Assembly: GCA_019637645.1 (NCBI GenBank)
Contig: JAHBVH010000001.1
Span: 124,001-188,000 of the forward strand
Origin: Caldilineaceae bacterium
GTDB taxonomy: Bacteria; Chloroflexota; Anaerolineae; Caldilineales; Caldilineaceae
Reading direction: 5' to 3'
DNA: 64,000 nt
Shown here: positions 25,399-58,677 of the stretch, in pieces
How positions within the stretch are numbered: the first letter of the stretch is position 1
Layout: each line of letters starts with the position of its first letter
Notes under the pieces: model-generated
The model's input: only the letters and a program-made list of their open reading frames with translations
What the model was told of the DNA's origin: nothing
Databases searched by the model: none
Program-made: the position numbers and the translations under genes

Positions 25399-25586
25399 GC
25401 GTGTGATCACAACGTGTTAGTGGCGATGATCAATTCCTCATCTAAGCGGAAAGCGGTGACACTTTGCGGCAAGAGGGGAGGTAGGGTCACAAGCAGACAA
25501 ACAGCGCGCCGCCTTTCTCTGCTTGCCGAGAGCCAGGCGCTAGCGGGTTGCTAGGACCCGGCTCTCGGTGCGCTTACCGCAAACGG

Positions 25587-27581
25587 TTAGCGCGTTACGA
25601 TAGGCAAGAACAGTTGTTGTGTGAGGTCAGTGTCAGTCGGTGTACTGGTTGGTGGTACTGGTGTGTTGGTGGGCGTATCGGTCGGTGTACTGGTTGGTGG
25701 TACTGGTGTGTTGGTGGGCGTATCGGTCGGTGTATTGGTTGCTGGTGCCGGTGCGCTGGTGGGCGTATCGGTCGGTGTGTTAGTGGGCAGCACTGATGTG
25801 TTGGTGGGGGTGGCGGTTGGTGTATTCGTCGCCGTATTGGTTGGTGTTGGGGTGCTGGTTGGGGTGCTGGTGGCAGCACTGACCGCTAAGGTATAGCTAG
25901 TCGCCGTTGTAGAACTGGGATTGCCAGAAAGCTGCTCCTGATTGGTGATGACAGCGACCACACTGGTGCAGCCGCTCGCATTGAAACTATTAATCGTTGT
26001 GGCCGTACCGGTCCCAACCACGGTGGGGAAAGGCACGACGGTCAAGGTGGACCCTGTATCACAGACGAGGCTGCCGCGCAGTTGCCCACCGCTGCCTGTA
26101 TTATTGAGGGTCACCTGATAGGGGCTACCACTAGTGGGCAGACTTATCCAGTTCGCAGCATAGTGGTTCCGGATGCTACCATTGTATGTACCTGGATTCG
26201 CCGCGATAGCGCCATGCATGGGTGGCAGCGAACCCACAAAGGTGGTGTAGTCTGGCCCCTCTTCCAAACAGTACAGGCCCGCATATCCGCCCGTACAGCC
26301 TTTTTCAAATTTCGCCGCAATGGCATAGTGATGGAAGGCATCCGGCAGATTGGTCCCTGCCGTGACTAACGCATTGTTGTAGGCTGTCAGTGCTTGCTGA
26401 CCAGCGCCCACGTTTTCCCAAAAATGCTGCATCACATTTTCGCCCCCATTGACCACATGTGCACTACCGTTTTGTTCGGCAACATAGCGGAAGAACAAGA
26501 AATTAGAATACTGGGAGATGCCACTGGGGGCGCTGTTGTTCGGCCATTCACCTAATGAATTGCTGACAACCGGCCAGAGATATTGATAATCGCTGTTGGC
26601 GTTGTTAAAAACCTCATCTTCCATGTAGGCTGCTGACGATTCATACCACATGGCATCTTCCCATGTATCGGGGTCGCCATAGCCACTCTGGATAGCGTGG
26701 ATAAACTCATGTGAGGTTGTCGAGTCTAACGCCCCCTGTGCCCCTTCGGGGAACTGGGAGAAATCATCGTTGAGCACCATACAGCTGGCAAGGGCCGCGC
26801 TCTCGGTGGCGGGTGTGTTAGGATTGTCGCCGACAAAGCCCGTATACTGCCCACCCGAACCGGAACTGACATAGCCATACAGCCCACCCCCTAAATTCGC
26901 AATTTGAATGGGGTAGCGGCCAAAAGGGTTCGCATGGTCACAAGTCGCCCCGCATAATGGCGGTTTGGCCCAGCCGAATTGGGTAACCTCAATGTCAAAC
27001 GTGGTCTCCATTGAGGTTTTATAGTCATTGAGAGTGAGACCACCGCTAATCGTGTCATAGGTAAAATGGAAATTGGTGGAATCAGAAGTGTTAGCACCAT
27101 CTTCGGCATCGCAGACGGTAGCCGCCAGGGTCTGCATTCGGCTTAATTCTTGTTGCACCCTATCGGTCGTAGCAGAATGCACACGTTGCATATAGGTTTG
27201 TACTTCTAGTACAGCTTGTGTGCCGTGCCAACCAACCTTGCTGCGGAATTGCTCTGGCAGCGCTTGTGGCTCATAGAGCGCATAGGCCAGATAGAGCGCC
27301 TGCTGGTCGGCTGTGATGTCGCCGCGGCCAAAGGCTTGTTCGATCAAGCGCGGTGTCGATAATTGCGTTGTTGCAGCAGGCTCGGATGAGAGAACGCCAT
27401 TGGCCAATAAGGGCAAGTAGATCTGAGCCTGCGTGGGCGAAGGCGGTGCCGCCGATACGGTTTGTTTTGTAGTTGGATTGGCAGCCGCAAGGCTGATCGA
27501 ACTAACGATAGCTAGCACTACTAGTCCATAGATTGTGGCCACAAAGGGACGAGTAAAGTGGTGTAAAGTCTTTGCGCGCAA
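25587..27581 (-). CDS. secreted MXAN_6640-like zinc metalloprotease
   Basis: A 664-residue exported protein. TTG 27581 is the likely start because GAAAGGA lies six bases upstream and a clean signal peptide follows (RPFVATIYGLVVLAIVSSIS, ending about LAAA). The zinc site is HEFIH (residues 291-295) with the third ligand probably Glu314 in WYESSAAYMEDEVF, the layout of MXAN_6640-type putative metalloproteases. The motif IYLPLL occurs at residues 54-59, just after the signal. A Thr/Pro-rich linker (repeats of PTNTPVPPTSTPTDT) precedes the C-terminal LFLPIVTR. It should act outside the cell; its substrate is unknown. Confidence 0.82.
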   Translation of the reverse strand: MRAKTLHHFTRPFVATIYGLVVLAIVSSISLAAANPTTKQTVSAAPPSPTQAQIYLPLLANGVLSSEPAATTQLSTPRLIEQAFGRGDITADQQALYLAYALYEPQALPEQFRSKVGWHGTQAVLEVQTYMQRVHSATTDRVQQELSRMQTLAATVCDAEDGANTSDSTNFHFTYDTISGGLTLNDYKTSMETTFDIEVTQFGWAKPPLCGATCDHANPFGRYPIQIANLGGGLYGYVSSGSGGQYTGFVGDNPNTPATESAALASCMVLNDDFSQFPEGAQGALDSTTSHEFIHAIQSGYGDPDTWEDAMWYESSAAYMEDEVFNNANSDYQYLWPVVSNSLGEWPNNSAPSGISQYSNFLFFRYVAEQNGSAHVVNGGENVMQHFWENVGAGQQALTAYNNALVTAGTNLPDAFHHYAIAAKFEKGCTGGYAGLYCLEEGPDYTTFVGSLPPMHGAIAANPGTYNGSIRNHYAANWISLPTSGSPYQVTLNNTGSGGQLRGSLVCDTGSTLTVVPFPTVVGTGTATTINSFNASGCTSVVAVITNQEQLSGNPSSTTATSYTLAVSAATSTPTSTPTPTNTATNTPTATPTNTSVLPTNTPTDTPTSAPAPATNTPTDTPTNTPVPPTSTPTDTPTNTPVPPTSTPTDTDLTQQLFLPIVTR
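25636..25725. repeat. 45-bp perfect tandem repeat coding a Thr/Pro linker
   Basis: Two identical 45-base units at 25636-25680 and 25681-25725, with degenerate copies continuing to about 25870. They encode 15-residue PT-rich units in the metalloprotease on the minus strand. Copy number can change by slippage without breaking the frame. Confidence 0.85.
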
Positions 27582-28494: not shown

Positions 28495-28524
28495 TGGAAT
28501 CTCCTTTGTAATTGTCAATTGTCT

Positions 28525-28607
28525 AGAAGTTACGCAGTTGATCGGCGTGACCAGAGACTTGACAGGTTTTCCAAACCTGTCAAGTCTGGTCCAAGTGCGT
28601 ACCTTCT
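28525..28607. repeat. nested palindrome, full copy 1
   Basis: Outer arms AGAAGTTACGCA / TGCGTACCTTCT enclose an inner palindrome GACTTGACAGG...CCTGTCAAGTC. Relative to the other copies, the inner stem has a C-to-T change on one arm matched by G-to-A on the other, which keeps the pairing. Confidence 0.9.
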
Positions 28608-28645
28608 ATTGTCAACGAACCATGGAATGCACAAATGTAATGATA

Positions 28646-30157
28646 TCATGCCGGGGCGACTTTGAGCCGCAAAAAGAGACTGATCCGCTCCATGAGCGTT
28701 GCGCGTGCTTGTCCCTGCGTTTGCCCAAGTTTGGCGCTCTCCTCCGCCAGCCGTGTCTCAGTGATGCTCCGGCGTTTGTCCAACGCATCGAGCAGCGCCT
28801 CCAAAATTGTTGGATCAGCAGCCAGCACTGTGGTAAAGGCGTGTTTGTCGAGGAGGATGACTTCCGTATCGCGCGCGGCCACCACCGAAGCGGATCGCGG
28901 TGCGCCCGTCAAAAGACTCATTTCGCCAAAGTATTCACCTGCACTGCGCTGGGCAACGTGGACCTGCCCGCCCTCGCTATTGGCGGCATAGACATCCACC
29001 TGGCCACTCCGGATGATAAAGAGCGAATCGCCAGATTCGCCTTCGCGCACCAATGTTTCGCCTGCCAGGAAGCGTTGGTGCCGCGTATGGGTGACGAGTT
29101 GCGCCAGTTGACCTTCGGACAGCCCCTCGAAGAGCGCCACTGGTCGCAGCGTGTGCATGAGTTGCTGCTGGCGGGCCAGCGTGGTCGTTTGTTCATGGGC
29201 GGCATTGAGCACCTGCATGTTGATTTCCCGCAGCGGCGTCGCGAGGGTCATCTCCGCCCGCTGTAAGGCATACCAGACACGGGTCAACACGGCATCGTGC
29301 AGCTTGAGCTTGAGGCCATAATCGTGAAACCAATAGCGAATGCCATATTTGATGTACGAGTCGGTATATTCCCAGACCATCACTTGGGGCGACTGGGCCG
29401 GGGCAAGGCCGTCAATATCGGCAAAGGCGGCGGCGAGCACGGCTTTCACCGCGCTCGGCGGATGGATGCGCGCCACGCCGACTGATAGATCACAGGCCAC
29501 CATGGGGCCGGGGCGGGTGTAGTTGATGATTCTGCTCTGGGCGATCTGGTTGTTGGGCAAGATCACACATTCGTTGCGCAGCGTCAGAATGGTAAGCGTG
29601 CGCCAGTTCAGCCGTACCACCCGCCCTTCTTGACCATCGACTTGTACCCAATCATCCACCTGAAAGGGGCTTTCTAGTTGCAGCGTGATCCCAGCGAAGA
29701 GGCTGCCCAAAATCTGCTGCAAGGAAAGCGCAATAATGGCCGAGACGACGGTCGAACTCACCAGTAGCCCGGTCAGATCCAGCACAAAGATATGGCTGAT
29801 CACCAGCAGGGAAACTGTCACCAGCAAGAGCCAGCCGATCAGATCGACTAGAAAGAGCGGAATGCGCAGGCGCTTGGGGCGTAGGGCAAACTCCACCAAG
29901 GCCCACTTCGCCAATTCCACGGTGGCGTTGAGGGTCAACATGATGCCCAGCGTCAGCAGCAATTGCCGCGAGAACGGCGCGTTCGCCCCCGGCACACCCA
30001 GCGAGCCTTGCAGGAAAAAGAGCAGTTGAAATCCTAACAGCGCCGCGATGGCCGACAGGCTCGTCGCACGACTGACGCGCACACCACGGACGCGCCACAG
30101 CAGCAGCGCAATCACGGCGATGATGGCCGCGACAAGGAGAGGCAGCAGCGTCAACAT
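28646..30157 (-). CDS. MscS-type channel with C-terminal cyclic-nucleotide-binding domain
   Basis: A 503-residue membrane channel. From ATG 30157 there are about five hydrophobic segments (TLLPLLVAAIIAVIALLLW and onwards). The MscS pore helix and beta domain follow (VVSAIIALSLQQILGSLFAG, SPFQVDDWVQVDGQEGRV, ILPNNQIAQSRIINYTR). After about residue 350 comes a cNMP-binding domain: LFEGLSEGQLAQLV, LVREGESGDSLFIIRSGQVD, and the phosphate cassette GEYFGEMSLLTGAPRSASV with Glu, Arg and Ala in the expected places for cAMP. It should open to ligand or tension. The start overlaps the HD gene by seven bases, and an adenylate cyclase lies in the same gene set. Confidence 0.9.
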   Translation of the reverse strand: MLTLLPLLVAAIIAVIALLLWRVRGVRVSRATSLSAIAALLGFQLLFFLQGSLGVPGANAPFSRQLLLTLGIMLTLNATVELAKWALVEFALRPKRLRIPLFLVDLIGWLLLVTVSLLVISHIFVLDLTGLLVSSTVVSAIIALSLQQILGSLFAGITLQLESPFQVDDWVQVDGQEGRVVRLNWRTLTILTLRNECVILPNNQIAQSRIINYTRPGPMVACDLSVGVARIHPPSAVKAVLAAAFADIDGLAPAQSPQVMVWEYTDSYIKYGIRYWFHDYGLKLKLHDAVLTRVWYALQRAEMTLATPLREINMQVLNAAHEQTTTLARQQQLMHTLRPVALFEGLSEGQLAQLVTHTRHQRFLAGETLVREGESGDSLFIIRSGQVDVYAANSEGGQVHVAQRSAGEYFGEMSLLTGAPRSASVVAARDTEVILLDKHAFTTVLAADPTILEALLDALDKRRSITETRLAEESAKLGQTQGQARATLMERISLFLRLKVAPA

Positions 30158-32031
30158 GATTCGTTCCTCACTAGATTCTCTCCCAGATTCTCTCCCCAAT
30201 TCCCCTCGGCATAAATCGCACGCACCTTCTGCCGAAACTCTTCCTTGGTATAAGTAAAATGCCAATGCTTTAGATAGACCTCTTTGGGGATCATCAGGAT
30301 GCGCAGCGGCTTATGGGCGCTAATCGTGGCGTTGCGCGGCGCACCACGAATGACACTCGTACTGCCCAGCGGCGTCCACGGATAAACCGGAAAGGGACGA
30401 TAGCCACCGAGCGGCACACCGGACAGCCCATCCGCTTGGGCAATGTAGACAAAACCCGGTGGCGACCCGGCCTCGATGAGCACATCGCCTGCTTTGGCCT
30501 CGATCGCGCGCACCCCCTCAAACGCCTGTGTCGGGTCCATGTCGCTGATCTTATGCCCAGAGATCGCGATCCGCTCCAGAACCTGGCGGCGTTCGCTCAT
30601 CGTCCAAGCCAGATCGGCGGCGGTCAGGTAGCGATTGCGTTCCAGGTCACTCATGTTTTGCAAAGAGGGTACCGGCTTGACGCGCCCGCGCAATTGGGGA
30701 TTGACCCGGATCAGTTCCTCTGCCACCAACTTGGCAAATTCTGGATCATCATCCACGCCTTCCAGGAGAATGCGCATTGTGTCGGCGTGCTTCATTGGCT
30801 GCTCCGCAGCGCCAATGGTCGTTGGCGCACCCGCGAAACTGCCGATGACGTCGGCTTGCATGTCGTTGACGATAAACGCCGCCGAATGAATCGCAAAGCG
30901 TTGCGCCGCCGGGCTACCAAAGGCCCCGCGAAAGAAAGAGACGCGCAGATCGCCATCAACCGTCAATTCGCTGCCCGCCAGATTCGCTTCGCCCGTCGCA
31001 ATCGGGCGGTCAATTTCCAACAGCAGCAACATCTCGTCGTCGCCTTTCTTCAGGGCGTAGATGGCGTTGCCGGTCTGCTGGTTCAGAAAGATTTGATAGC
31101 CACCCGAGGTGTTCATCACTGTACCGCGCTGCCGCAGCGCATCGGCGCAACGCAAGGCGCGCAGGGTGTCTACGACATCATTGATCAGCGCTTGCACCGC
31201 CGGGTGAGGCGAGCGCAGCCAAGCAAAGGCCTCTTGCTCGAAATCGGCATAGAAGCGCCCCAGCAGAGTTGTACGCAGATCAACCGCCCCAAACTGGATT
31301 TGAGCATGGGCGAATTCGGCCTCGGCCTCCTGTAGCGCCTGACTTGCCCGCGCGCGTGCCGCTGGCTCCGCGCCAGCTTGCGCGACCTTGCGCCGGTTCT
31401 TTTCTACCTGGCGTTGGGCGTAAATCAACCGCAAGTCGGTTGCCGCAGAGTGGAGCAGCACTTGGCGTAACTGGTGCGGATCATTCAAGACTGCGATGGG
31501 AACGTTGCTTTTGCTATGCCCAATCGACAGCGCCAATAGCTCGCGTAGGGTCACGAGTGGGTCTTGGGGCAAGACGCCGCGCTGGGCCAAGTTGAGCAGC
31601 CGCCAAGCCGCATTGCCACAGTTTTCGTCCCAAATGGTCTGGACAATCGCATCAAATTCGGGTTGGAAGACCGCTTGCAGGGCAAAATCGGGGTGCATTG
31701 CGCGCCCAAGGCTGGAAAAATCGACCATGCCAATATCGTGGAGATAGGCGAGCATGACGCCATAGCCCTGCATAAAGGCGAGCCGGAAAGGGGTACGCTG
31801 TGGGATCAGAACGCCGTTGATCACCTTCAGTACGTGGACGATCTGTTGCGCCACGTCGCGCACATGCACCACCCCATGATCGCCAAAGAGGACGACATGT
31901 TCTTCCAACAGCGTCAGGAACTCTTCATCGTGGGCGACCTGATCCAGGCGTGATTTGCTGTTGATTTGCGCATAGTAACGTTGTTCGATCTGTTCGCGAA
32001 TCGTCGCGGGCAGATATTGGTCAAGTTGCAT
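30151..32031 (-). CDS. HD-domain protein with C-terminal cNMP-binding-like domain
   Basis: A 626-residue cytoplasmic protein starting at ATG 32031 (MQLDQYLPATIREQIEQRYY) with GGAG six bases upstream. An HD-type region with VHVRDVAQQIVHVL and YLHDIGMVDFS occupies about residues 50-200. A charged helical insert (EKNRRKVAQAGAEPAARARA) follows, and a second half with KADEMLLLLEIDRP-like strands. Residues about 480-600 look like a degenerate cyclic-nucleotide-binding fold (AKAGDVLIEAGSPPGFVYIA). It could be a phosphohydrolase or phosphodiesterase tied to cAMP. It is translationally coupled to the MscS/cNMP channel gene. Confidence 0.75.
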   Translation of the reverse strand: MQLDQYLPATIREQIEQRYYAQINSKSRLDQVAHDEEFLTLLEEHVVLFGDHGVVHVRDVAQQIVHVLKVINGVLIPQRTPFRLAFMQGYGVMLAYLHDIGMVDFSSLGRAMHPDFALQAVFQPEFDAIVQTIWDENCGNAAWRLLNLAQRGVLPQDPLVTLRELLALSIGHSKSNVPIAVLNDPHQLRQVLLHSAATDLRLIYAQRQVEKNRRKVAQAGAEPAARARASQALQEAEAEFAHAQIQFGAVDLRTTLLGRFYADFEQEAFAWLRSPHPAVQALINDVVDTLRALRCADALRQRGTVMNTSGGYQIFLNQQTGNAIYALKKGDDEMLLLLEIDRPIATGEANLAGSELTVDGDLRVSFFRGAFGSPAAQRFAIHSAAFIVNDMQADVIGSFAGAPTTIGAAEQPMKHADTMRILLEGVDDDPEFAKLVAEELIRVNPQLRGRVKPVPSLQNMSDLERNRYLTAADLAWTMSERRQVLERIAISGHKISDMDPTQAFEGVRAIEAKAGDVLIEAGSPPGFVYIAQADGLSGVPLGGYRPFPVYPWTPLGSTSVIRGAPRNATISAHKPLRILMIPKEVYLKHWHFTYTKEEFRQKVRAIYAEGNWGENLGENLVRNESC

Positions 32032-32053
32032 CGTTGGCTCCATTATCAACCAT

Positions 32054-32135
32054 AGCAGTTACGCAGTTGGCTGGGTACCTAGAGACCTGACAGGTTTTCC
32101 AAACCTGTCAGGTCTGGTCTAAGCGCGTAACGCCT
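32054..32135. repeat. nested palindrome, full copy 2
   Basis: Outer arms GTTACGCA / GCGTAAC and inner arms AGACCTGACAGG / CCTGTCAGGTCT around TTTTCCAAA. It lies between the phosphatase and HD genes inside the presumed operon, so the RNA hairpin would be in the message. Confidence 0.9.
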
Positions 32136-32156
32136 AAACCAGTAAAATCGGGAGAT

Positions 32157-34178
32157 TCATTTTTGTTTCAACACCAACAACGTGATGTCATCAAAGACCG
32201 TCTGCTCGCCAATAAACTGGCGCACATCGTCGATGACGGCCTGTTTGATGGCTTCCGCCGACGCGACCCAATGCTGACGGATGGTCTCACAGAGGCGCTC
32301 CAGCCCATACTGTTGATTGGCTGCGTTCTCAGCTTCGGTGATGCCGTCGGTATAGAGCACGACCCCATCCCCCGGCCCCAGTGTCACCTGCCGCCGTCCG
32401 ATAAAGTCGGCAATATCTGCATCCAGGCCGATGGGAAAGCCGAGGTCAAGCGTATCGATCCGTTCGACCACACCGCCCTGGCGCACCACGATCAATTCTT
32501 CGTGCTGGCCGCTGGCCCACAAATAGCCACCTTCGGGTTGTGGCTGATAGTCGAGGAGTGCTAGCGTCAGACTTTTGTCGATGCCCATGCGCTGCACGTT
32601 GTGATAGAGCGTGCGGTTAAGCACATCCATAAATTGCACCGGATTGCTCTCGTCGTGGGTCAGTAGAGTACGCACGCCCATTTGGGTCATCAGCATCAAC
32701 ACACCGCTCTCCAGCCCATGACCGGTTACATCGCCGATGCCAATTTTGACGTGGCCGTTGTGGTGCAGCACGTCATAATAGTCACCGCCCACTTCGTCGG
32801 CTGGCTCCATATACCCGGCGATCTCCAAGCCTTCGATCTCCTGCAACTCTTGCGCTTTGGGCAAGATCATACGTTGCAACCGTTGGGTCACTTCGATCTC
32901 GGTACTCAGCCGCAGATTCTCGCTCTGCAATTGCTCGTTCAGGTGGCTGATCGCGTGATTCGCCGCGGCCAGTGCTGCCGTGCGTTCCGCCACTTTGTGC
33001 TCCAAATTCTCGACTAGTTCGTGCAGTTGACCGGCCATCTGCTCAAACGAGCGCGCCAACTCGCCCACCTCGTTGCGACTGCGGACGGGTACGCTCTGCT
33101 GCCATTCGCCGCGCGCCAGATTTCTGGCCGCTTGGTTCAAGTGCAGAATGGGGCGGCTGAGCCACGCCGAAAGCAGGTAGGTGATCCCCACCAGCAGCAC
33201 CACAGCGGCCAGACTGATCAACCCGTTTAAGCGCGTCTGGCGGGTTAAAGCCGCATCGATGAGACGACTGTTATAAGTGATGGCAACGACCTTGTCGTTA
33301 TGACCATCGCCGACCATCCCTTCATCGGGCAGATCGACCAGAAAATAGCGGGTCAAGGTCTGCTGCTCGGCATCGACGATTTCCACCGTCCCCCGATTAC
33401 TCTTGGTGATCTCCTGTATCATCGTCTGCGTCGCTTGGTCGACAGTGAGCTTCTGTTCTGTTGTCATCAGCCGACCTTTGTAGTCATAGAGCAGAATCTG
33501 ATCCACCGCCGGGTTGAGCGTCTTGAACGCCTCGGCCAGCTTGAGTGGATCTAAGTCACCGGCAAACTGCGCCAGATCGTGGATGACCACCCCATATTCC
33601 AGGACATAGCGATGATCGGGGGTGGGCGCGTAGGCAAATTTATAATATTGGCCCGTGCGGACTTGCGTGCTCAGACGGTTGCTCACCATCGAATCACCCT
33701 GGCGAACTTGTGCCAGAAACTTCACCATATCGGGGGAGGAGACCTTGAAATCCAGCCCCGCCGAGTCGGCGTCCGTGGTATAGTCAATCACACTCTCGGC
33801 ATCGATGATATAGAGATCAAACTCCAGCCCCGTCAATGCCTCGGCCTGTTGTTTCACCGCGGCCAGATCAACCAACTCGGGCTGCCCGCCGGACGCGGCG
33901 TAGGCCGCCAAAAACAGCGGGAACGCCTTGGCTATTTGCGGCTCCAGCGGCTGTTCGAAGATCTTATAGGCAATGTCTACCTGTTTAAGCGCGTTACGGA
34001 TACCCGCCTCGGTTTGGGCTTGCAGCAGCGCATCGCTGGCGCGTAGACTCGCCTGGGTGGCCAGATAATTGCTGACCGAAAGCAGGATCAGCACCGGAAT
34101 TACCAAGAGCAGGATGGCCCCCATCACCTGGTATTTGAGCGGGATATAGCCCCGTCGTCCCATTTGTTGTGTATTCAT
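32157..34178 (-). CDS. membrane PP2C-type (SpoIIE) phosphatase with Cache and HAMP domains
   Basis: A 673-residue sensor phosphatase like RsbU/SpoIIE-domain proteins. A first membrane helix (YQVMGAILLLVIPVLILLSV) is followed by an extracytoplasmic double-Cache-like region to about residue 310, a second helix (LISLAAVVLLVGITYLLSAW), HAMP (about 340-395) and a coiled coil. The phosphatase domain (about 440-673) has its metal-binding Asp residues: EVGGDYYDV, GIGDVTGHG, LYTDGITEAEN, and FDDITLLVL. It should dephosphorylate the STAS protein encoded upstream in response to an external signal, completing a partner switch. Confidence 0.9.
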   Translation of the reverse strand: MNTQQMGRRGYIPLKYQVMGAILLLVIPVLILLSVSNYLATQASLRASDALLQAQTEAGIRNALKQVDIAYKIFEQPLEPQIAKAFPLFLAAYAASGGQPELVDLAAVKQQAEALTGLEFDLYIIDAESVIDYTTDADSAGLDFKVSSPDMVKFLAQVRQGDSMVSNRLSTQVRTGQYYKFAYAPTPDHRYVLEYGVVIHDLAQFAGDLDPLKLAEAFKTLNPAVDQILLYDYKGRLMTTEQKLTVDQATQTMIQEITKSNRGTVEIVDAEQQTLTRYFLVDLPDEGMVGDGHNDKVVAITYNSRLIDAALTRQTRLNGLISLAAVVLLVGITYLLSAWLSRPILHLNQAARNLARGEWQQSVPVRSRNEVGELARSFEQMAGQLHELVENLEHKVAERTAALAAANHAISHLNEQLQSENLRLSTEIEVTQRLQRMILPKAQELQEIEGLEIAGYMEPADEVGGDYYDVLHHNGHVKIGIGDVTGHGLESGVLMLMTQMGVRTLLTHDESNPVQFMDVLNRTLYHNVQRMGIDKSLTLALLDYQPQPEGGYLWASGQHEELIVVRQGGVVERIDTLDLGFPIGLDADIADFIGRRQVTLGPGDGVVLYTDGITEAENAANQQYGLERLCETIRQHWVASAEAIKQAVIDDVRQFIGEQTVFDDITLLVLKQK

Positions 34179-34181
34179 CGC

Positions 34182-34850
34182 TCAATGACTCCCAGCCATT
34201 AAAATAAAGAGCAGAACCGCCACCGCCACCGCAAGGTCGATGAGCAGCAACCGCTGTCGCTCGACACTACGACCATAGGGCCAACTGAAGAGCGCTGCCG
34301 AGGCCAATCCAGCTGGGCCCCATTGATGCCAGCCCAACAGCAGCAGGGTCAGCAAGAGTGCGCGACTCACCATGCGCGGCCAAAGTTGCAGAGACACGAG
34401 CGTTTGGCGAGCTTTGTTGCGATAGGTCAACACGCGCTCGGTGACAAACCAGGCGTGTGTGACCAAGATATAGCCGCTGGCGTAGATCACCCAGCTTGCC
34501 GGAAGCGCAAAGGCTGCGCCGGGGGCAAACCAGGTGGCCACTAGCCAGAGTGACGCTAGATGCAAAAGCTGATCTTGCAGATAGCCGCCGATCACCCACT
34601 GCGGCTTGCGCTTGGCTAGCACGTTTTTCCAAACATCAATGGCAAAATGCAGACCCGTTACCGCCACCACCGCAAAGAGCGCGGTACGCCATTCCAGCCG
34701 GACCAAACCTAGCAGGATGACCAGCATGGTCACCAGATGCACGGTGACATGGAAGAGCAGCCCAGGCAAGTGTTTCTTGGCTTGTACCATCGCATCGGTC
34801 TGCAATGGATAATCAGCCATGAGGTGGGAAAGCAATAAAGTCCAGAACAT
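34182..34850 (-). CDS. DUF3307 membrane protein
   Basis: A 222-residue polytopic protein of family DUF3307. The start MFWTLLLSHLMADYPLQTD contains the family's HLxxDYxLQ pattern. Five or more hydrophobic segments follow (FHVTVHLVTMLVILLGLV, ALFAVVAVTGLHFAIDVWK, WVIYASGYILVTHAWFV, LLLIDLAVAVAVLLFILM), with GGYLQDQLLHL between. Function is unknown. It lies three bases from the phosphatase gene and follows the cyclase gene closely, so it is part of the same unit and could be a membrane partner of cyclase or phosphatase. TTG 34859 is a less likely start. Confidence 0.85.
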   Translation of the reverse strand: MFWTLLLSHLMADYPLQTDAMVQAKKHLPGLLFHVTVHLVTMLVILLGLVRLEWRTALFAVVAVTGLHFAIDVWKNVLAKRKPQWVIGGYLQDQLLHLASLWLVATWFAPGAAFALPASWVIYASGYILVTHAWFVTERVLTYRNKARQTLVSLQLWPRMVSRALLLTLLLLGWHQWGPAGLASAALFSWPYGRSVERQRLLLIDLAVAVAVLLFILMAGSH

Positions 34851-34862
34851 AGTGATCAATCC

Positions 34863-36362
34863 CTATTTCTCCGTCATCACTGTCACGCCGGTCCAACCGG
34901 GTGGGACGCCTTGCTCGGCTAACTGCGTCGCCTGCACAAGATGATGCCAGGCCACTTTGTCGCGCGGGTTGTGTTGCAAGATGCGAAAGAGAATATTTTG
35001 GGCGGCATCAAATTCACGCTGATAATAGCGCCGTAGCGCCTCTTCATAATCGGCCTGAGTCTCCTGCTTGAGCTGGCGCATTAGTGGTAAATCGGCGTCG
35101 TAGACTTCATAGAGGTCGAGCGCTGTTTTGCGCCCTTTGACCTGTACCCGATCCAGAAAGCGGATATTGTAGCGGCTTGGATCAACCAGACGGCCATAGG
35201 TGGCGGCGGAGATGATCAGCGACACATGATAGAATTTGGTCAACCCTTCTAGCCGCGATGTTAAATTGACATCATCCGAGAAGGCGTCGCCTTGCATACG
35301 GTGTTGTTCACCGACCATACCGACCATCATATGACCCGTGTTGACGCCGATGCCCACGCCAATCGGCAACCGATTCTTGCGCTGCCGATAGTTGTTATAC
35401 TCGTTGACTTGCATCAACTTCTCGATGCCCGCCTGCACGCCATCATCGGCGCAGCGGGGGAAGACTGCATGGATGCCATCGCCCAAATATTTGATGATAA
35501 AGCCCTGGTGCTGGCGCACGACTGGGCTGACCCGTCCTAGATAGCTGTTGATAAAGGTAAAGTTTTCTTCGGGCGTCATCGTCTCGGAGATGGTGGTAAA
35601 GCCGCGCAAATCGGAGAACATCACCGTCATTTCGCCCGTCACATAGTCGCCCAAGCCAATGTCAATGATGCTCGACTTCGCCAAAAAGCCAAGATATTCT
35701 TGCGGCACAAAACGGCTGGACGCCTGGTTCATCTCTTTCAGGTGGGTAATGTTGTGCCAGGCGCTGAGCAAACTTGGCGCGTCATTGAACACCAATCCCC
35801 GCAGCGAGACATCCACCCACTGCGCTTGACCAGCAACCGTACGGAATTCAACCTCCTGATGATCCACCTCACCCGCTTGGTCGAGCAGGGTGAGTAACTC
35901 GCTTTGCACGGTTGGGTCAGCATAGAAATCGGTGATTTTGCGTCCATGTAGCGCCGCGGTCGAGAGGCCCACCAGCGGGCCAGCCGTCGCGTTGCTATAG
36001 ACAATCTCGCCATCGGCGCGGCGACTGATCACGATGGGAATCGGCGTCGCTTCGACAATCAGCCGCAAGCGCCGTTCACTCTCGCGCAGCGCTTCGGCGG
36101 CTTTCTCGTGCAGCTCTTCCTCCACGGCATCGGAATGCGCCGTGGTCATCTCGAGCAGCACCGAGAGATCCTCTTTTTCGGCGAGCAAGCCGGCTTGGAC
36201 GGCGTCGCTATGCTCGGCGCTCATCTCGAGTATAATGGCTAGCCGCTCTTTTTCTTCGGCCAGTTCTGCCACCTGTTGTTGTAAGGCGGCGATCTCGGCG
36301 AGTAACGCTTGGGTCGGCGGCGCTTTTTTGCGACGGCTCTGGGTCATCTCGGCGGCCCTCAT
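34863..36362 (-). CDS. PAS-domain class III adenylate cyclase
   Basis: A 499-residue cyclase that should make cAMP from ATP. Residues 30-90 form a coiled coil with a duplicated unit (LEMSAEHSDAV, LEMTTAHSDAV). A PAS domain spans about 95-210. The cyclase homology domain (about 240-400) has both metal Asp residues, Asp251 in FSDLRGFT and Asp295 in KYLGDG. It also has the adenine-selecting Lys291 and the DDVNLTSRLE segment with Asn365 and Arg369, so the active site looks complete. A TPR-like tail follows. ATG 36362 overlaps the STAS stop (TGATG); ATG 36347, with GAGG upstream, is an alternative. It is the likely source of cAMP for the channel encoded in the same set. Confidence 0.9.
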   Translation of the reverse strand: MRAAEMTQSRRKKAPPTQALLAEIAALQQQVAELAEEKERLAIILEMSAEHSDAVQAGLLAEKEDLSVLLEMTTAHSDAVEEELHEKAAEALRESERRLRLIVEATPIPIVISRRADGEIVYSNATAGPLVGLSTAALHGRKITDFYADPTVQSELLTLLDQAGEVDHQEVEFRTVAGQAQWVDVSLRGLVFNDAPSLLSAWHNITHLKEMNQASSRFVPQEYLGFLAKSSIIDIGLGDYVTGEMTVMFSDLRGFTTISETMTPEENFTFINSYLGRVSPVVRQHQGFIIKYLGDGIHAVFPRCADDGVQAGIEKLMQVNEYNNYRQRKNRLPIGVGIGVNTGHMMVGMVGEQHRMQGDAFSDDVNLTSRLEGLTKFYHVSLIISAATYGRLVDPSRYNIRFLDRVQVKGRKTALDLYEVYDADLPLMRQLKQETQADYEEALRRYYQREFDAAQNILFRILQHNPRDKVAWHHLVQATQLAEQGVPPGWTGVTVMTEK

Positions 36363-36700
36363 CAGAATTCTAGGCGTAAATTGGGCAGCAGGCGTTGCAA
36401 GTTCACCAACGACTTTTTCTGCCAGGGATATTGTTCGCTGCCCTTGACAATTAACTGGCTGGCTGGCTGTTTGCGCATCTGCATCACAAACTTGGAGAGC
36501 GTATTGATCCCCGAACTGTTGAGAAATTGCAGTCCACTCACATCCAAGGTCAGCACAGGATGACCCGCCGCCGCGGCGGCATTTAGCATCCCTAGAATGG
36601 CGTCGTACTCGGCTCCATTCAGGCGAAAACTCCCACTGCACAGCACCGTGGCCGTGTTCGGATCATACTTGGCTTGATAATCGGTCTGGATGATTTCCAT
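36362..36700 (-). CDS. STAS-domain protein (slr1659-like)
   Basis: A 112-residue anti-sigma-factor-antagonist-like protein. The STAS core is LTLDVSGLQFLNSSGINTLS with Asp53 and the phospho-acceptor candidates Ser62/Ser63. This is the layout of SpoIIAA/RsbV relatives, and of the slr1659-type regulators that pair with slr1658-type ATPases. GAGGAG precedes ATG 36700. It should be phosphorylated by the adjacent GHKL protein and dephosphorylated by the SpoIIE-domain phosphatase. Confidence 0.85.
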   Translation of the reverse strand: MEIIQTDYQAKYDPNTATVLCSGSFRLNGAEYDAILGMLNAAAAAGHPVLTLDVSGLQFLNSSGINTLSKFVMQMRKQPASQLIVKGSEQYPWQKKSLVNLQRLLPNLRLEF

Positions 36701-36773
36701 CGGGTTCTCCTCAGGCTAAGTCTTGGTATGCGCGACGATTTTTCCAAAAGGGGCATGGCTAGCTGACGAGCGC

Positions 36774-37349
36774 TCAGACCGTCAACTGCACCATGGTCGT
36801 CACCACAACGGCTTCCGGGTTGCCGGGGATGAGCTCAAATTTCCAGCCTAATTCGGCGTGATAGTCATTGAGCATGGTGAGAAAACCCAGCCCGGACCCG
36901 TCGCTGGTTTCATCTTCGGCATTCTGCATCAGCCGTTCCATGTATAACTCATCGGGATCGCCGGTCAGTAGCTCTTCAAGGAAGCGTTGGAAGCCAGCCA
37001 AGGATTGTGGATCAAGGCTGTTGGCGACATAGAAGCGCACGCGCGCTGCATCCAGCTGCATGGTGATCCGAACCGGATACTGGGCGGGTGCATAGTTGAA
37101 CTTCATGGCATTTTCGAGCAATTCATTAGCCACATAGCTGACGGCACCCTTGAGTTCGGTGCGCCGATCCAGCGCCGCTGCATCATCGCCCGGGAAAAAA
37201 GTACTGAGATAATCAGCCAGAAAATCAGCTGATAGACCATTGTTGCGCCAGCGTTCTTGGAGCGAAATCGAACTGGGCGAAAAGCCAATTTGCAAATATT
37301 CCTGCTGATTGACATCCTTTTCTACAAACTTACCCAAGCTTTGGAGCAT
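36774..37349 (-). CDS. GHKL ATPase-like regulator (slr1658-like)
   Basis: A 191-residue protein with the ATP-binding features of anti-sigma/histidine-kinase folds: the N box ELLENAMKFN about residue 77 and the G box DGSGLGFLTML about residue 150, with ELGWKFEL near the end. It resembles the slr1658 group, which sits beside STAS partners. It is the probable switch kinase for the STAS protein 73 bp downstream. No sigma factor gene is adjacent, so the final output is open. Confidence 0.82.
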   Translation of the reverse strand: MLQSLGKFVEKDVNQQEYLQIGFSPSSISLQERWRNNGLSADFLADYLSTFFPGDDAAALDRRTELKGAVSYVANELLENAMKFNYAPAQYPVRITMQLDAARVRFYVANSLDPQSLAGFQRFLEELLTGDPDELYMERLMQNAEDETSDGSGLGFLTMLNDYHAELGWKFELIPGNPEAVVVTTMVQLTV

Positions 37350-37357
37350 GGCTCACC

Positions 37358-37666
37358 TCATTCTATAGAAACCGGTTGCGGTTGCGTGGTGTATCCTGCG
37401 CTGTCACCGACGCTGCTAGCCTGATCCGCTAGATGCTCAACCAGCAGTAGCGGGAAACCCAGGCAGTAGAGCTGTTCGAGTACCCCCAGTAATGCGGCCT
37501 GGTCAGCGACATTACCCAGTAAGATCGTGATCCCGTACTCACTTGGTTGGTGACGCTGGATCACCCAAACGCCGCTGAGTAGATCCAACCAGGCTGCATC
37601 GAACCGACCTTGGATATAAATGCGATAGCGGGCCTGGTCATCCGCATGTAGCCCCTGTGCCTTCAT
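37358..37666 (-). CDS. small conserved protein, unknown function
   Basis: A 102-residue cytoplasmic protein starting at ATG 37666. It has the pattern YRIYIQGRFDAAWLDLLSG (Gly-Arg-Phe-Asp-x2-Trp), then ITILLGNVADQAALLGVLEQ and LGFPLLLVEHL. Similar short proteins with G-x-L/F-D-x2-W and a VADQAAL-x-G-L segment occur in Chloroflexota and other bacteria, with no assigned role. It is the first gene of the set with the GHKL ATPase (eight bases apart), so a regulatory role in that module is likely. Confidence 0.65.
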   Translation of the reverse strand: MKAQGLHADDQARYRIYIQGRFDAAWLDLLSGVWVIQRHQPSEYGITILLGNVADQAALLGVLEQLYCLGFPLLLVEHLADQASSVGDSAGYTTQPQPVSIE

Positions 37667-38077
37667 GATACCTCTGATCTTCAGCGCACAGCCTCGTCAC
37701 TCAGTGTTGGTGTGTCAGGCCGCGGATCGTGACGGGTACGCAATTCTTCGCCCTGGTGATTTCTGGGCAGTGCTCGGGCTGTTTTGCCGTGAAGTTTGTT
37801 CGCCCGACTACTATACCGGGTGCTGGGCATAGCGCGTATTACACAAAAAGTAGTATTTTTAAGCTGAAACGGCATAGGCAAGGGGAGCGGGAATGGGGCA
37901 GACTGTAGCCTCAGCTTACCATAGGATCGGATAGTCATTATGAGGCAGAATGGGGCAGGTCGTCATACCGGTAGAAGTTACGCAGTTGGCTGGGCAACTA
38001 GAGACCTGACCGGTTTGGAAAACCGGTCAGGTCTGGCCTAAGTGCGTAACGCCTAACAGTAGTAAGCGATCAAGGTC
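37667..38077. other. leader of the signalling operon plus palindrome, no gene
   Basis: 411 bases between the first gene of the signalling set and the end of the MalT-like gene. On the minus strand a TATAGT at about 37815 could be a -10 box. The nested palindrome copy 3 occupies 37973-38054. An 85-codon frame at 37681-37938 is low in complexity and not believed. Confidence 0.45.
37973..38054. repeat. nested palindrome, full copy 3 with compensatory changes
   Basis: Outer arms GTTACGCA / TGCGTAAC. The inner stem is GACCTGACCGG / CCGGTCAGGTC: both arms changed (A-to-C with T-to-G) compared with copies 2 and 4, and the centre reads TTTGGAAAA instead of TTTTCCAAA. Confidence 0.9.
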
Positions 38078-40843
38078 TTAATTTAACGGCGGCAAAAGGC
38101 TCAATGCTTCCGCTTTAGCAATCGCCTCGCGGCGATTACGCACGCCCAGTTTGGTATAGATATTGTTGGTATGCTTTTTGACGGTGTGCGAGGAAATGAC
38201 CAAGTGGGTGGCAATCTCATCGATCGAGAGCCGTTGGCGGATGAGCCCCAAGAGTTCGAGCTCACGTGGGGTGAGGGGTGTAATCCCGTAGAGTTTGGCG
38301 TATTGAGTGGTCAGGGCGCGCCGTTCCGCTGGCTCCCGCGTGGCCGGGAAGGACGCCAGCAACAGTTTGATCCGGGGCGATTGGCCGTGGGTGGCCCCTA
38401 GGTGGCGCAATAAATCAGCCATCGGCCTACCGAGATCGATAAAGGTACGCACAAAGCTGCCTGGCTCGCCCAAGGCCAGCGCCCGGGCCAGCACCGCAAA
38501 CGCCTCTTCTGTACGTTGGAGCGCGTGCAGCATGAGCGCTTGCAACGCACAAATTTGGATCACTTGCCGTGTATTGTGAACCGCTTCGGCATGCTGTAGA
38601 CAAGTGGTGGCAAAGGCCAGGCCCGCGTTCAAGGCCGTGGGCGTGCCGACCGCGAACAAGGCCCGGATGCGTGTCAAGGCTGGTAATTCGATTTCTAGCT
38701 GCGTCCCTTGGTTCGCGGCGGTCTTGATCTCCTGCGTCCGGTACTCGGCGTCGGCTCCTTGCCCATTGAGCAGTGCCAGCCGCACGGCGAAAGTCGCTGC
38801 GTGCTCCAGCAAAGCAGGGCGACGGATTTCGGCAGCAAACTCATGCGCAGCCTGCGCATAGGCCAGCGCCTTGCCCACGCTCCCCTTCGCCTGTGCAACC
38901 AGGGCCAAGCCCAGCAAACTGCTAAAAAAGATCGCCGGATTGGCACGATAGCGCATGGCTTCGACACACTGCCAGTGGTGCGCGGCAAGGGCTAGATCAT
39001 TCCGCTCATACCAAACGGTCGCCAGCAAATAGTGCGCCCAGCTATACCAGGTTTCCACAAAGCCGATGCCTTGCCAATCTGCGGCATACGACTCATCCAT
39101 GGTGGTCACGGCCTGGGTCGCGAGGTTGACCACTTCGGCTAGGTTACCCGCGTGCAGATGGAGAATGGCGAGCCCGCCGAATAAGATGATCTGGATTGCT
39201 TGTTGCTGCGCCTTCGCTTCCGCCAACGCCGTACGCAATAGGGTATAGGCAACCACGCGTTCACCCGTGCAAAACTGGGCCGCGGCGAGGTGAACCAGCA
39301 CCTGGGTGCGCGCAAAGTAATGCGTGGGGGCGAGCTGGGCGAGGGTGGTTTGGAGCAACAAGATGGCGCGCTGTGGTTCACCATGCCAGTAGGCCAAGAT
39401 CCCAAGGAGGAGATGCAGATCCACCAGCAGCGCTTGGCGTCGCGTGCTGCCAAGCGTTGTATCGTGTTGCAGCTGGGACTCCAGATTGCCCAACTGCGCC
39501 AGCGGCACAACCGGCCCAATGCCAAAGGATGACAACCAGAGCTGAACTAGGCGCAAGCCTGGCCGGGTTTGAATCAACGCTGCCGGAAAAAACGACAGCC
39601 AGCGCGTCAGCGTTGGCCCAGGATGCTGTCGCTCTAGCATCGCGTGAAACTGCGCGAAGACCAGTTCCGCGGCCGCATCCTCATCACCGGCGGCCAATGC
39701 GTGGCGTAGTGCATCTTCGATCAGACCCATCCTGGCAAACCAGGTACTCGCGCTGTGGTGCAACTGTGCCACACGAGCTGGTGATTCCGTGCGCTTGAGC
39801 TGGTGGCGCAGAAAATCGCGAAAGAGGTCATGATAACGCAGCCAGTCGCCGGTCTGATCGAGCGGAATGACAAAAAGATTATGGGCTTCCACTTGGGCGA
39901 TCAACGTTTGGCTAGCACCCAGCGGTAGACGGTCGGCCAGGAGCGCGTCGGCCAGCGGCGCGCAGAAGCGCTCCACGAGCGCAGTGGACAACACAAATTC
40001 GCGCAGGGGCTCCCCAAGGCGCTCCATCACCTCCTCCACCAAATAGTTGACCAATAGCCGGTTATGGCCATGAAATTGCTCTAGGAATTGCTGCGGGTGC
40101 TGGGGCTGCCCCGCACGGCTGGACAAGTGCAGTGCGGTGACCCAGCCTTCGGTGCGCGTATGGACAAGCCTGACCACATCCTCACCCAGCGCCTGACCAA
40201 GCCGCTGGGTGAGAAAGTTGCGCGTTTCCTCAACCGTGAAGCGTAGATCGCTCGCACGCAATTCGGTGATCTGGCGTTCCATCCGCAAACGCCCCAAGTA
40301 CAAGGGGGGGTCGGTACGCGCAAGGATCACGATGTGCAGCTGGGATGGCAAATAGCGCAACAAATGGCGGATGACCCCATGCACCTCGGCGGAACGGATG
40401 AGATGATAATCATCGAGGACGAGCACCAGTTCAACGGTGAGCGCACTCAATTCGCTGACCACCAGGTTGGCGAGATAGTCCACCCCAGGCCCGTGCGCCG
40501 ATCCCAATAGGCTCAGGGTCGTGGGGCACGCCCCTGGTTCACAGGTGCGCACGGCAGCAATCAGATAGCGCAGAAACTGGACAAGCTGATTGTCTCCTGC
40601 ATCTAAAGAGAGCCAGCACGATTTTAGCGGTTGGCTTGAAGGTGTTGACCCCGCTTCACCCTTGTCCAGCCACTGGCTGACCAGCGTGCTTTTGCCAAAG
40701 CCGGGGGGCGCAGACAGGAGAATGAGGTTGTGCCGCAAACCCGCATCCAACCGGGCCATCAGCTCTGGGCGCGCGATCCAGTGCGCATCCGTCCGTGGGC
40801 GATACAGCTTTGTTGTGAGCAGCAGGGTCGGTTGGACTTGCAT
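38078..40843 (-). CDS. MalT-like (LAL-type) LuxR-family transcriptional regulator
   Basis: A 921-residue STAND ATPase transcription factor. Residues 1-250 hold the NTPase with Walker A SAPPGFGKST (about 44-53) and Walker B ELVLVLDDYHLI. The middle (about 350-830) is a helical TPR-like sensor. The C-terminal about 65 residues are a LuxR helix-turn-helix (LTPRELELLGLIRQRLSIDE, SSHTVKKHTNNIYTKLGV). Such proteins activate promoters when ligand and ATP bind. It is transcribed toward the cyclase/partner-switch set, with a palindrome in between, so it is a candidate regulator of that set or of the protease gene on its other side. Confidence 0.93.
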   Translation of the reverse strand: MQVQPTLLLTTKLYRPRTDAHWIARPELMARLDAGLRHNLILLSAPPGFGKSTLVSQWLDKGEAGSTPSSQPLKSCWLSLDAGDNQLVQFLRYLIAAVRTCEPGACPTTLSLLGSAHGPGVDYLANLVVSELSALTVELVLVLDDYHLIRSAEVHGVIRHLLRYLPSQLHIVILARTDPPLYLGRLRMERQITELRASDLRFTVEETRNFLTQRLGQALGEDVVRLVHTRTEGWVTALHLSSRAGQPQHPQQFLEQFHGHNRLLVNYLVEEVMERLGEPLREFVLSTALVERFCAPLADALLADRLPLGASQTLIAQVEAHNLFVIPLDQTGDWLRYHDLFRDFLRHQLKRTESPARVAQLHHSASTWFARMGLIEDALRHALAAGDEDAAAELVFAQFHAMLERQHPGPTLTRWLSFFPAALIQTRPGLRLVQLWLSSFGIGPVVPLAQLGNLESQLQHDTTLGSTRRQALLVDLHLLLGILAYWHGEPQRAILLLQTTLAQLAPTHYFARTQVLVHLAAAQFCTGERVVAYTLLRTALAEAKAQQQAIQIILFGGLAILHLHAGNLAEVVNLATQAVTTMDESYAADWQGIGFVETWYSWAHYLLATVWYERNDLALAAHHWQCVEAMRYRANPAIFFSSLLGLALVAQAKGSVGKALAYAQAAHEFAAEIRRPALLEHAATFAVRLALLNGQGADAEYRTQEIKTAANQGTQLEIELPALTRIRALFAVGTPTALNAGLAFATTCLQHAEAVHNTRQVIQICALQALMLHALQRTEEAFAVLARALALGEPGSFVRTFIDLGRPMADLLRHLGATHGQSPRIKLLLASFPATREPAERRALTTQYAKLYGITPLTPRELELLGLIRQRLSIDEIATHLVISSHTVKKHTNNIYTKLGVRNRREAIAKAEALSLLPPLN

Positions 40844-42228: not shown

Positions 42229-42635
42229 TCCCACCAGCCTATCGTGGTATCCGTGTTGACTTTTCTCCCCGCCCTTGACACTGCCCTTGATACCGCCCCA
42301 CAGCTTCTTCTTTTTCTTCACTTTTACGCGAAGTTTGGCTATGTTACAATCTATTTGTAACTAAATACGCTACGGTGACAAGCCGCTCACCGTAGCGTAT
42401 CCATGGGGTTATCTAGTTGCTCCTTCGTTTATATCCTCTGTTTTACCAACCCTGTCATGCTTCGTCTTCCCCTGATTCCTAAGCAACGGTTTGAAAAGGC
42501 CATCAAGTGGCAACCTGCTTCTTCCTGGAAGGGCAATCGGCACCTTTGTCCCTTTTTAACCCGTTTCTAAGCTGCGCTGGCGATTAGGTAAAGACAATCA
42601 TGAAGATCCGCGAATTTTCGGCACTGAAATCTATT

Positions 42636-42718
42636 AGAAGTTACGCAGTTGACTGGCGTGACCAGAGACCTGACAGGTTTTCCAAACCTGTCAGGTCTTG
42701 TCTAAGTGCGTAACTCCT
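42636..42718. repeat. nested palindrome, full copy 4
   Basis: Outer arms AGAAGTTACGCA / TGCGTAACTCCT and inner arms AGACCTGACAGG / CCTGTCAGGTCT, closest in sequence to copy 2. Confidence 0.9.
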
Positions 42719-42872
42719 ATCTATATCAACAACTCCCCTGTCTATACGTTGAACGATGAGTGGGCAAGCCGGGGCGCACAGTTTTTGTTGCGCTTCTGTG
42801 AAAGCTGACCCCAGCGTAGATTGGCCTGCTCAGGTACCGAACAAATCAGCCCAAGAAATGGAGAAAAGAGCG

Positions 42873-48064: not shown

Positions 48065-48299
48065 ACCGGGCTACGGAACGACGCCGGCGCAAGCCCGCTT
48101 CCGCGGGCGTTGCTCCCTAGCACCGTCCCTGATGAAGGGTAAGCAATGAAAGCGGTAGACCTTACTCGTGCGCTTTCGCACAGCTTGACCGAGCAGGCGC
48201 TGATTTCAATCAGCGCTGGATTACCGAAGTTCATGGGCAATCTTCATCAATCCGCGCTGGATTACCGAATTTCATGGGCAATCTTCATCAGGGCGGTGC
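48065..48299. repeat. complex inverted-repeat element, copy A
   Basis: A left block (48065-48119, from CCGGGCTACGGAACG to GTTGCTCCCTA), an arm GCACCGTCCCTG at 48120-48131, a shared 45-base core (48132-48176), further sequence with a duplicated 41-bp unit, and a right arm CAGGGCGGTGC at 48289-48299. A related copy lies at 58162-58290 with the outer block on the other side. Confidence 0.75.
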
Positions 48300-58146: not shown

Positions 58147-58677
58147 TACGGTGTTCAAAAAGCACCGCCCTGATGAAGGGTAAGCAATGAAAGCGGTAGA
58201 CCTTACTTGTGCACTTTACAGGGACGGTGCTAGGGAGCAACGCCCGCTGAAACGAGCTTGCGCCGGTGTCGTTCGGTAGCCCGGTGGCTGCAGCCTTGGG
58301 TGGTCTACCCAAAAAAAATTGGGACCTCTGTATCTAATTCCTCGCCCGTTTAATTCCCACCCGCTTAGCGAGCGATGCCCCCATCGTTCGCGTAACATTC
58401 TCTTTCGTTTCCTCCGGTTTATGCTCCAGCTCGTTTTATTGATAAGCACCAAGGCGCACCAGGCCGCCCGAAGGCTTTGTGCACGGCATCACAAAAGAGA
58501 TGGTTGCCTTCCGGCGCTGCTGGGCAGATTTTACAGTGGTGAACAAGAAAACCTTGTGCAACTCTTCACTGCACAAAGTGGACAAAAGTAGATAAGCTGT
58601 TGTAGCGCGTGTCACATCAGCTGAGGAAGCTGGTGAGAACAGACCCGCGGCCTTACCAAAGCGAGGAGCGAGCAACC
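58147..58677. other. 0.5-kb gap with complex repeat, no gene
   Basis: It holds copy B of the complex inverted element (58162-58290) and an eight-base A-run at about 58311. The remaining 58330-58650 shows no supported gene. A GAGGAG ribosome site for the next gene lies at about 58661. Confidence 0.55.
58162..58290. repeat. complex inverted-repeat element, copy B
   Basis: Left arm GCACCGCCCTG (58162-58172), the 45-base core shared with copy A (58173-58217), right arm CAGGGACGGTGC (58219-58230), then the outer block (58231-58290) as the reverse complement of the block that lies left of copy A. Confidence 0.75.

Follow-up and report, generated by a model that had tools for sequence, protein, structure and literature searches.

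Does a phosphorylation switch in a member of the Caldilineaceae steer a cyclic-nucleotide signal to a membrane channel? The question is raised by eight clustered open reading frames (ORFs) in a 64,000-nucleotide (nt) stretch of this genome (contig JAHBVH010000001.1, positions 124,001 to 188,000; hereafter the window). All eight lie on the minus strand and span 37666 down to 28646 in the ORF list of the window, as the initial annotation had described. In order of transcription they encode a small protein, a GHKL-type kinase, a STAS protein, a PAS/class III nucleotide cyclase, a DUF3307 protein, a HAMP/SpoIIE phosphatase, an HD-type protein and an MscS-type channel with a cyclic-nucleotide-binding (CNB) domain. 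Because a palindromic repeat occupies the 113-nt gap after the sixth gene, the cluster was treated as two blocks, block 1 comprising the first six genes (37666-32157) and block 2 the HD-type protein and the channel (32043-28646). Both halves recur across phyla, and the cluster is therefore more than a chance pile-up. That the phosphatase/kinase/STAS switch, the cyclase, the HD protein and the CNB channel work as one chain is a reading to which we give slightly less than an even chance, and every biochemical step of it is one that we infer.

The partner switch and the nucleotide cyclase

The GHKL protein (36774..37349) passed the NCBIfam cut-off of the slr1658 switch kinase family (NF052618; 254 bits versus 200), and the STAS protein (36362..36700), which carries a conserved LNSSGI motif, passed that of the slr1659 superfamily (NF047705; 133 bits versus 100). 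The two adjacent genes thus encode a slr1658/slr1659 switch. Both proteins were also examined by alignment, that of the kinase with 45 hits. Their families, together with the SiaABC system, suggest that the GHKL protein is the kinase of the STAS protein.

The cyclase (34863..36362) showed an N-terminal part that reads as coiled coil, followed by a PAS domain (3.9e-11) and a class III domain (PF00211, Guanylate_cyc; 4.6e-20, 72 bits versus a cut-off of 21.9), and was predicted to be an adenylate cyclase. The closest solved structure was the adenylate cyclase 2w01 (1.4e-22), with which the motifs FSDLRGFT and LGDG aligned; both metal-binding aspartates are present. The lysine in IIKYLGDG and the aspartate in QGDAFSDDVN, at both of which 2w01 differs, may point to ATP as the substrate by the usual rules for such cyclases; the residue roles assigned to the cyclase, the CNB domains and the phosphodiesterases likewise follow general knowledge of these families. 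A cyclase relative at 77% carries the name Caldilineaceae. Among 376 genomes of the class, 10 held matches at E ≤ 1e-80, which covered only about residues 194-495, and no full-length orthologue was seen in that set.

The phosphatase (32157..34178) was assigned by PF07228 (SpoIIE, PP2C type; 4.6e-39) and PF00672 (HAMP; 1.3e-14). Two hydrophobic segments (18-36 and 320-338) flank a possible outside domain. The HAMP and PP2C parts given initially were recovered by Pfam, and the Cache domain was not (none at E ≤ 0.1).

The company of slr1658 kinases was then surveyed. Matches above the cut-off occurred in 37 of 194 cyanobacterial genomes (47 matches), in 1 of 201 Chloroflexota and in 1 of 181 relatives of G056, the last being the seed itself. 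Forty loci were compared (38 of the 47 cyanobacterial matches, the Chloroflexota match and the match of G010), and neighbours were counted up to three same-strand genes away from the kinase. The control consisted of 325 ORFs of at least 100 amino acids (aa), contained in twenty 20-kb stretches of the same genomes (19 chosen at random, one placed by hand). Neighbour domains were called from profiles of our own making or from single sequences, with a Pfam check on some rows only. The results showed a class III cyclase near the kinase in 11 of 40 loci (L034, L035, L037, L038, L041, L052, L053, L055, L061, L064 and L072; control: 1/325 ORFs) and either a class III cyclase or a GGDEF protein in 16/40 (control: one class III and three GGDEF in 325 ORFs). 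SpoIIE genes were found near the kinase in 23/40 loci and MscS genes in 3/40, each against 0/325 control ORFs. It is thus supported, by 11 of 40 loci, that the partner switch and the cyclase belong together.

The order phosphatase-kinase-STAS-cyclase was present in L035, L037 and the Chloroflexota locus L072; L034 reads kinase-STAS-GGDEF-class III cyclase, and in L053 a GGDEF gene sits between phosphatase and kinase. When 43 kinases were placed in a tree, those of L035, L037 and L034, all cyclase-linked, came nearest to the window kinase, with a best identity of 58%. The cyclase label changed at least three times on well-supported branches of this tree, and its clustering did not exceed chance (201 of 500 shuffles gave as low a value), from which we conclude that the kinase-cyclase link was gained or lost several times. 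As a separate observation, GGDEF genes adjoin slr1658/slr1659 in ten cyanobacterial loci (L034 at 8870-9871, L039, L041, L043, L053, L061, L064, L069, L070 and L071), five of which also carry a class III cyclase; in such loci a single switch may govern two second messengers.

The nearest described counterpart of block 1 is found in Pseudomonas aeruginosa, where, in the portions of two papers that bear on it (PMC8457831, PMC7647112), SiaB is described as phosphorylating SiaC, SiaA as reversing this, and unphosphorylated SiaC as binding and activating the diguanylate cyclase SiaD. Both systems combine a membrane HAMP/PP2C phosphatase and a switch kinase with a small target protein, the output being a nucleotide cyclase, and the SiaABCD gene order is present in three other slr1658 loci. 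The window differs in that its kinase and STAS protein are members of the slr1658/slr1659 families (the SiaB match of the kinase being weak: E 1.8e-5, 24 bits versus a cut-off of 85), that its phosphatase, SiaA-like in its second half (HAMP plus phosphatase; E 1.1e-34, 120 bits), misses the SiaA cut-off of 700 bits, that its cyclase is of class III (PF00211) and not GGDEF, that the phosphatase gene comes after the cyclase, and that it has a channel and an HD protein besides. Compared with the cyanobacterial slr1658/slr1659 switch, to which the window kinase and STAS protein belong by their family cut-offs, the window has DUF3307, the phosphatase, the HD protein and the CNB channel following. 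In the part of PMC7555055 that treats Synechocystis slr1658, earlier work (Zer 2018) is linked to iron recovery and Pgr5, and slr1658 mutants are described as having altered transcript levels.

GHKL, STAS and PP2C proteins form the classic partner-switch set. The switch may be a general stress module in which the GHKL protein holds a sigma factor coded elsewhere, the cyclase and channel being regulated genes or bystanders. We consider this improbable. It would agree with the transcript changes in Synechocystis and with the 24 of 40 slr1658 loci that have neither cyclase type nearby, but none of the eight genes is a sigma factor gene, cyclase and GGDEF genes are enriched beside slr1658, and the cyclase ATG overlaps the STAS stop. 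An Rsb-like switch lacking a sigma factor gene had been proposed initially; a partner switch without such a gene among the eight is indeed present, and it is better read as a SiaABCD-like switch in which the cyclase would be the component switched.

The HD-type protein and the CNB channel

The HD-type protein (30151..32043) is a likely phosphohydrolase whose model shows a CNB fold at the C-terminal end (residues 475-596), as judged from relatives, models and fold searches. No Pfam HD domain was matched by the window protein itself. Residues H54, H58, H100-D101, H115, H174, D290 and D299 were invariant in 24 of 24 relatives, which keeps the metal-site pattern H...HD...D (H58, H100-D101, D290, D299), and weak Pfam matches appeared among these relatives (HD-CE in 4/24, best E 0.003; HD in 2/24, best E 0.044). 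The HD assignment is based on the invariant residues, these matches and the predicted fold. The initial description of an HD protein with a cyclic-nucleotide-binding-like end thus stands as regards residues and fold, without a Pfam HD match and without the glutamate of the phosphate-binding motif; since that glutamate is missing, the protein may not bind cyclic AMP (cAMP).

Relatives numbered 705 at E ≤ 0.001 among 8000 candidates scored. They are rare per genome, and their hosts include Chloroflexota, cyanobacteria, actinobacteria and others: 1 of 400 Chloroflexota, 1 of 244 cyanobacteria and 1 of 79 relatives of G006 held one, in each case the seed, and 2 of 79 relatives of G003 did (the seed and one more). 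The viral contigs searched held none.

In the 28 loci from the genome collection, a CNB protein was encoded by the next same-strand gene to HD in 13 (L001, L005, L006, L008, L011, L013, L016, L021-L025 and L027), and a translocase-like (TLC/MFS) protein stood next or next but one in 11 (L005, L008, L010, L011, L013, L016, L022-L025 and L027), 10 of which had a CNB domain, either fused or encoded by a small gene of its own. Pfam confirmed the translocase in L005 only and SulP in L021 only. Two SulP-STAS-CNB proteins stand by the HD relative in L021, MscS genes lie two genes away in L002, and a 564-aa protein, a urea transporter by Pfam in L003, is encoded downstream in L003 and L004. The CNB domain, fused or separate, is the shared feature of the HD partner genes, and the 13 of 28 loci support the view that the HD protein and transport proteins with a CNB domain go together.

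Some of these loci showed further features. In L001, the stretch upstream of the HD relative (2-3403) encodes two proteins of note: one contains two CNB stretches, and the other, of beta-lactamase fold, weakly resembles the anti-Pycsar enzyme Apyc1 (24 bits versus 50). Downstream, the opposite strand bears two cyclase frames. Neither a CNB nor a transporter gene was found alongside the HD relative in the mycobacterial loci L012, L014, L015, L017, L018 and L019.

In a second look by fold comparison, class I phosphodiesterases took 46 of the 50 rows, at middling Z. Compared with the class I cyclic-nucleotide phosphodiesterases (PDE4, PDE10, TbrPDEB1), the HD protein has a long variable insert before the last aspartate and bears extra alpha/beta and CNB domains. 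A search with PF00233, the model of this class, found it in 0 of 20 genomes, but the controls were equally blank, hence this result is uninformative. We put forward, as a tentative and rather doubtful proposal, that the family is an undescribed, widely scattered class of HD-CNB cyclic-nucleotide phosphodiesterases that travels across phyla with CNB-tailed transporters of at least three unrelated folds (MscS, SulP and ATP/ADP-translocase-like) and is here plugged into a SiaABCD-like switch, with cAMP replacing cyclic di-GMP; a single Ser/Thr phospho-switch would then open a membrane pore via a second messenger that is both made and broken down locally. About as unlikely, in our estimate, is that the HD protein is a nucleotidase or alarmone hydrolase and not a cyclic-nucleotide phosphodiesterase. 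The translocase-like partners in 11 of 28 loci (TLC/MFS confirmed by Pfam in L005 only) would fit nucleotide supply, there was no profile similarity to PDE4D, and the CNB-like end lacks its glutamate; however, SulP and MscS partners carry no nucleotides, the partners share the CNB domain, and class I phosphodiesterases fill most rows of the second fold comparison, at middling Z.

The channel (28646..30157) matched PF00924 (1.6e-18, 67 bits) and PF00027 (cNMP_binding; 6.5e-24, 84 bits versus a cut-off of 27.5). Its CNB tail is canonical, with the FGEMSLLTGAPRSA motif intact, and has PKA, PKG and SthK as relatives among solved structures, so the MscS channel with an intact CNB domain was confirmed as first described. 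Bacterial cyclic nucleotide-gated (bCNG) channels are reportedly MscS superfamily members with a CNB tail (work ascribed to Caldwell 2010 and Malcolm 2012), and the window channel has this architecture, an MscS beta domain followed by the CNB domain. Its neighbourhood, with genes for a cyclase, a switch and an HD protein, may set it apart from the bCNG channels described. The turgor sensing suggested earlier found no support beyond the MscS fold.

Linkage of the two blocks

To place the two modules in relation to each other, we compared genomes that carry them. Of 12 HD-bearing genomes tested, two (G003 and G010) had slr1658, in both cases on the contig that carries HD, at distances of 7.4 and 9.4 kb. 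The Kovacikia minuta plasmid (1.2 Mb), the sole plasmid with an HD relative, carries slr1658/slr1659 3.8 kb from HD, with a SulP-CNB gene and one further gene between. On all three other replicons found with both modules, slr1658 thus lay less than 10 kb from the HD gene. In the protein collection, linkage was deduced from equal-sized contigs, the gene order there not being read directly: HD and channel were tied in six relatives (contigs of 31459, 26779, 31085, 73801, 8614 and 4331), and cyclase and HD in two (26779 and 10914). One length (31459) joined the small protein to both HD and channel, and a further two, 132090 (Chloroflexi bacterium TSY) and 5532, paired the cyclase with the channel. 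Near relatives therefore seem to have HD, channel, cyclase and small protein together on a single contig.

The chain would run as follows. The HAMP/SpoIIE phosphatase would sense an outside signal and dephosphorylate the STAS protein, which the GHKL protein would phosphorylate, as the families and SiaABC suggest. One phospho-state of the STAS protein would then bind the cyclase and alter its activity, as SiaC does with SiaD. The cAMP produced would bind the channel CNB tail, whose motif is intact, and change its opening. Finally, the HD protein, which has a CNB-fold domain itself, would probably hydrolyse the cyclic nucleotide and end the signal; this is the weakest step. If the chain is true, partner switching extends to the control of cAMP synthesis, and a CNB-tailed MscS channel gains a ligand source as well as a ligand sink. 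Whether a STAS protein switches a class III cyclase becomes a testable question, and the HD family would serve as a marker for CNB-controlled transport in genomes whose ligand chain is not known.

Several observations weigh against this chain, besides the slr1658 loci with neither cyclase type and the unclustered cyclase label. The MscS genes beside slr1658 in L003, L059, L064 and L066 have no CNB domain by Pfam, that of L064 carrying DEP instead. Eleven of the 28 HD loci have no adjoining transporter or CNB gene (six from mycobacteria; L007, L009 and L020, whose contigs are shorter than 6 kb; and L026 and L028). The HD protein, in addition to its missing glutamate and its failure to match PDE4D, gave no Foldseek match to phosphodiesterases at E ≤ 0.001. 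Channel homologues at 35-40% identity occurred in 6 of 180 genomes, with no HD, GHKL or STAS gene nearby (0/6); one had a SpoIIE gene nearby, and near one a cyclase frame lay on the opposite strand. The complete set looks restricted to near relatives. The gene-neighbourhood check that the initial annotation had called for showed recurrence of both pairings and close spacing on three other replicons, and no such set around these six channel homologues.

The hairpin repeat dividing the two blocks also counts against the chain. The 86-nt repeat (32052-32137, palindromic, on neither strand in particular) folds at -41.4 kcal/mol (z -6.6). Further copies lie upstream (37971-38056) and downstream (28524-28609) of the cluster, both likewise strandless, and a fourth lies at 42635-42720; the four are 60-100% identical to the reference copy and fold 6.6 to 8.1 standard deviations better than shuffled sequences. 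Three of the four stand at both cluster ends and at the inner joint, as if they were border marks. The remaining spacings, which depend on gene starts that we chose from the sequence (for HD and the channel the listed ORF starts are too early, the likely ATGs being 32043 and 30157), were 8 nt between small protein and GHKL, 73 nt between GHKL and STAS, -1 between STAS and cyclase (one base in common, TGATG), 3 nt between cyclase and DUF3307 (with a TTG start), 3 nt between DUF3307 and phosphatase, and a 7-nt overlap of HD and MscS. The tight junctions first noted were therefore real at four places, and the repeat in the 113-nt gap had not been mentioned. Because a strong hairpin parts the cluster after gene six, the single operon proposed initially is doubtful; the two blocks may be transcribed jointly or separately.

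The cluster could hold two adjoining independent systems, the switch and cyclase feeding cAMP to regulators elsewhere and the self-contained HD/CNB-channel pair answering another nucleotide, which we judge possible but rather unlikely. The repeat stands between them, the modules are mostly apart in the genomes tested (slr1658 in 2/12 HD genomes; HD in the seed alone among 244 cyanobacteria, yet slr1658 in 37/194), and the HD end lacks the canonical glutamate. The spacing below 10 kb on three other replicons, the equal-sized contigs shared by cyclase, HD and channel in relatives, and the cyclase frames near HD in L001 and L005 speak against such independence. The literature, covered by titles and abstract openings with subscription journals mostly outside that coverage, held no description of the eight-gene set or of an HD/CNB-transporter pair, in keeping with the initial remark that no described system with this set was known.

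Other features of the cluster and window

The small protein (37358..37666, 102 aa, one hydrophobic stretch) had no known family in the Pfam/NCBIfam search, and none of its 24 homologues had a Pfam domain or functional name, consistent with its first description. The DUF3307 membrane protein (34182..34859; PF11750 1.3e-19) has four hydrophobic segments; its identity, like those of the GHKL, STAS and PAS-cyclase proteins, was confirmed by the Pfam/NCBIfam matches.

Outside the cluster, a large protein that reads as a LuxR/MalT-like regulator is encoded upstream on the same strand (38078-40843). A 45-nt repeat array (25585-25854) codes for the tail, rich in Thr and Pro, of a long protein that looks secreted. 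A 50-nt repeat occurs at 48127-48176 and, 10 kb apart and 96% identical, at 58168-58217, and a 41-nt tandem pair lies at 48206-48287.

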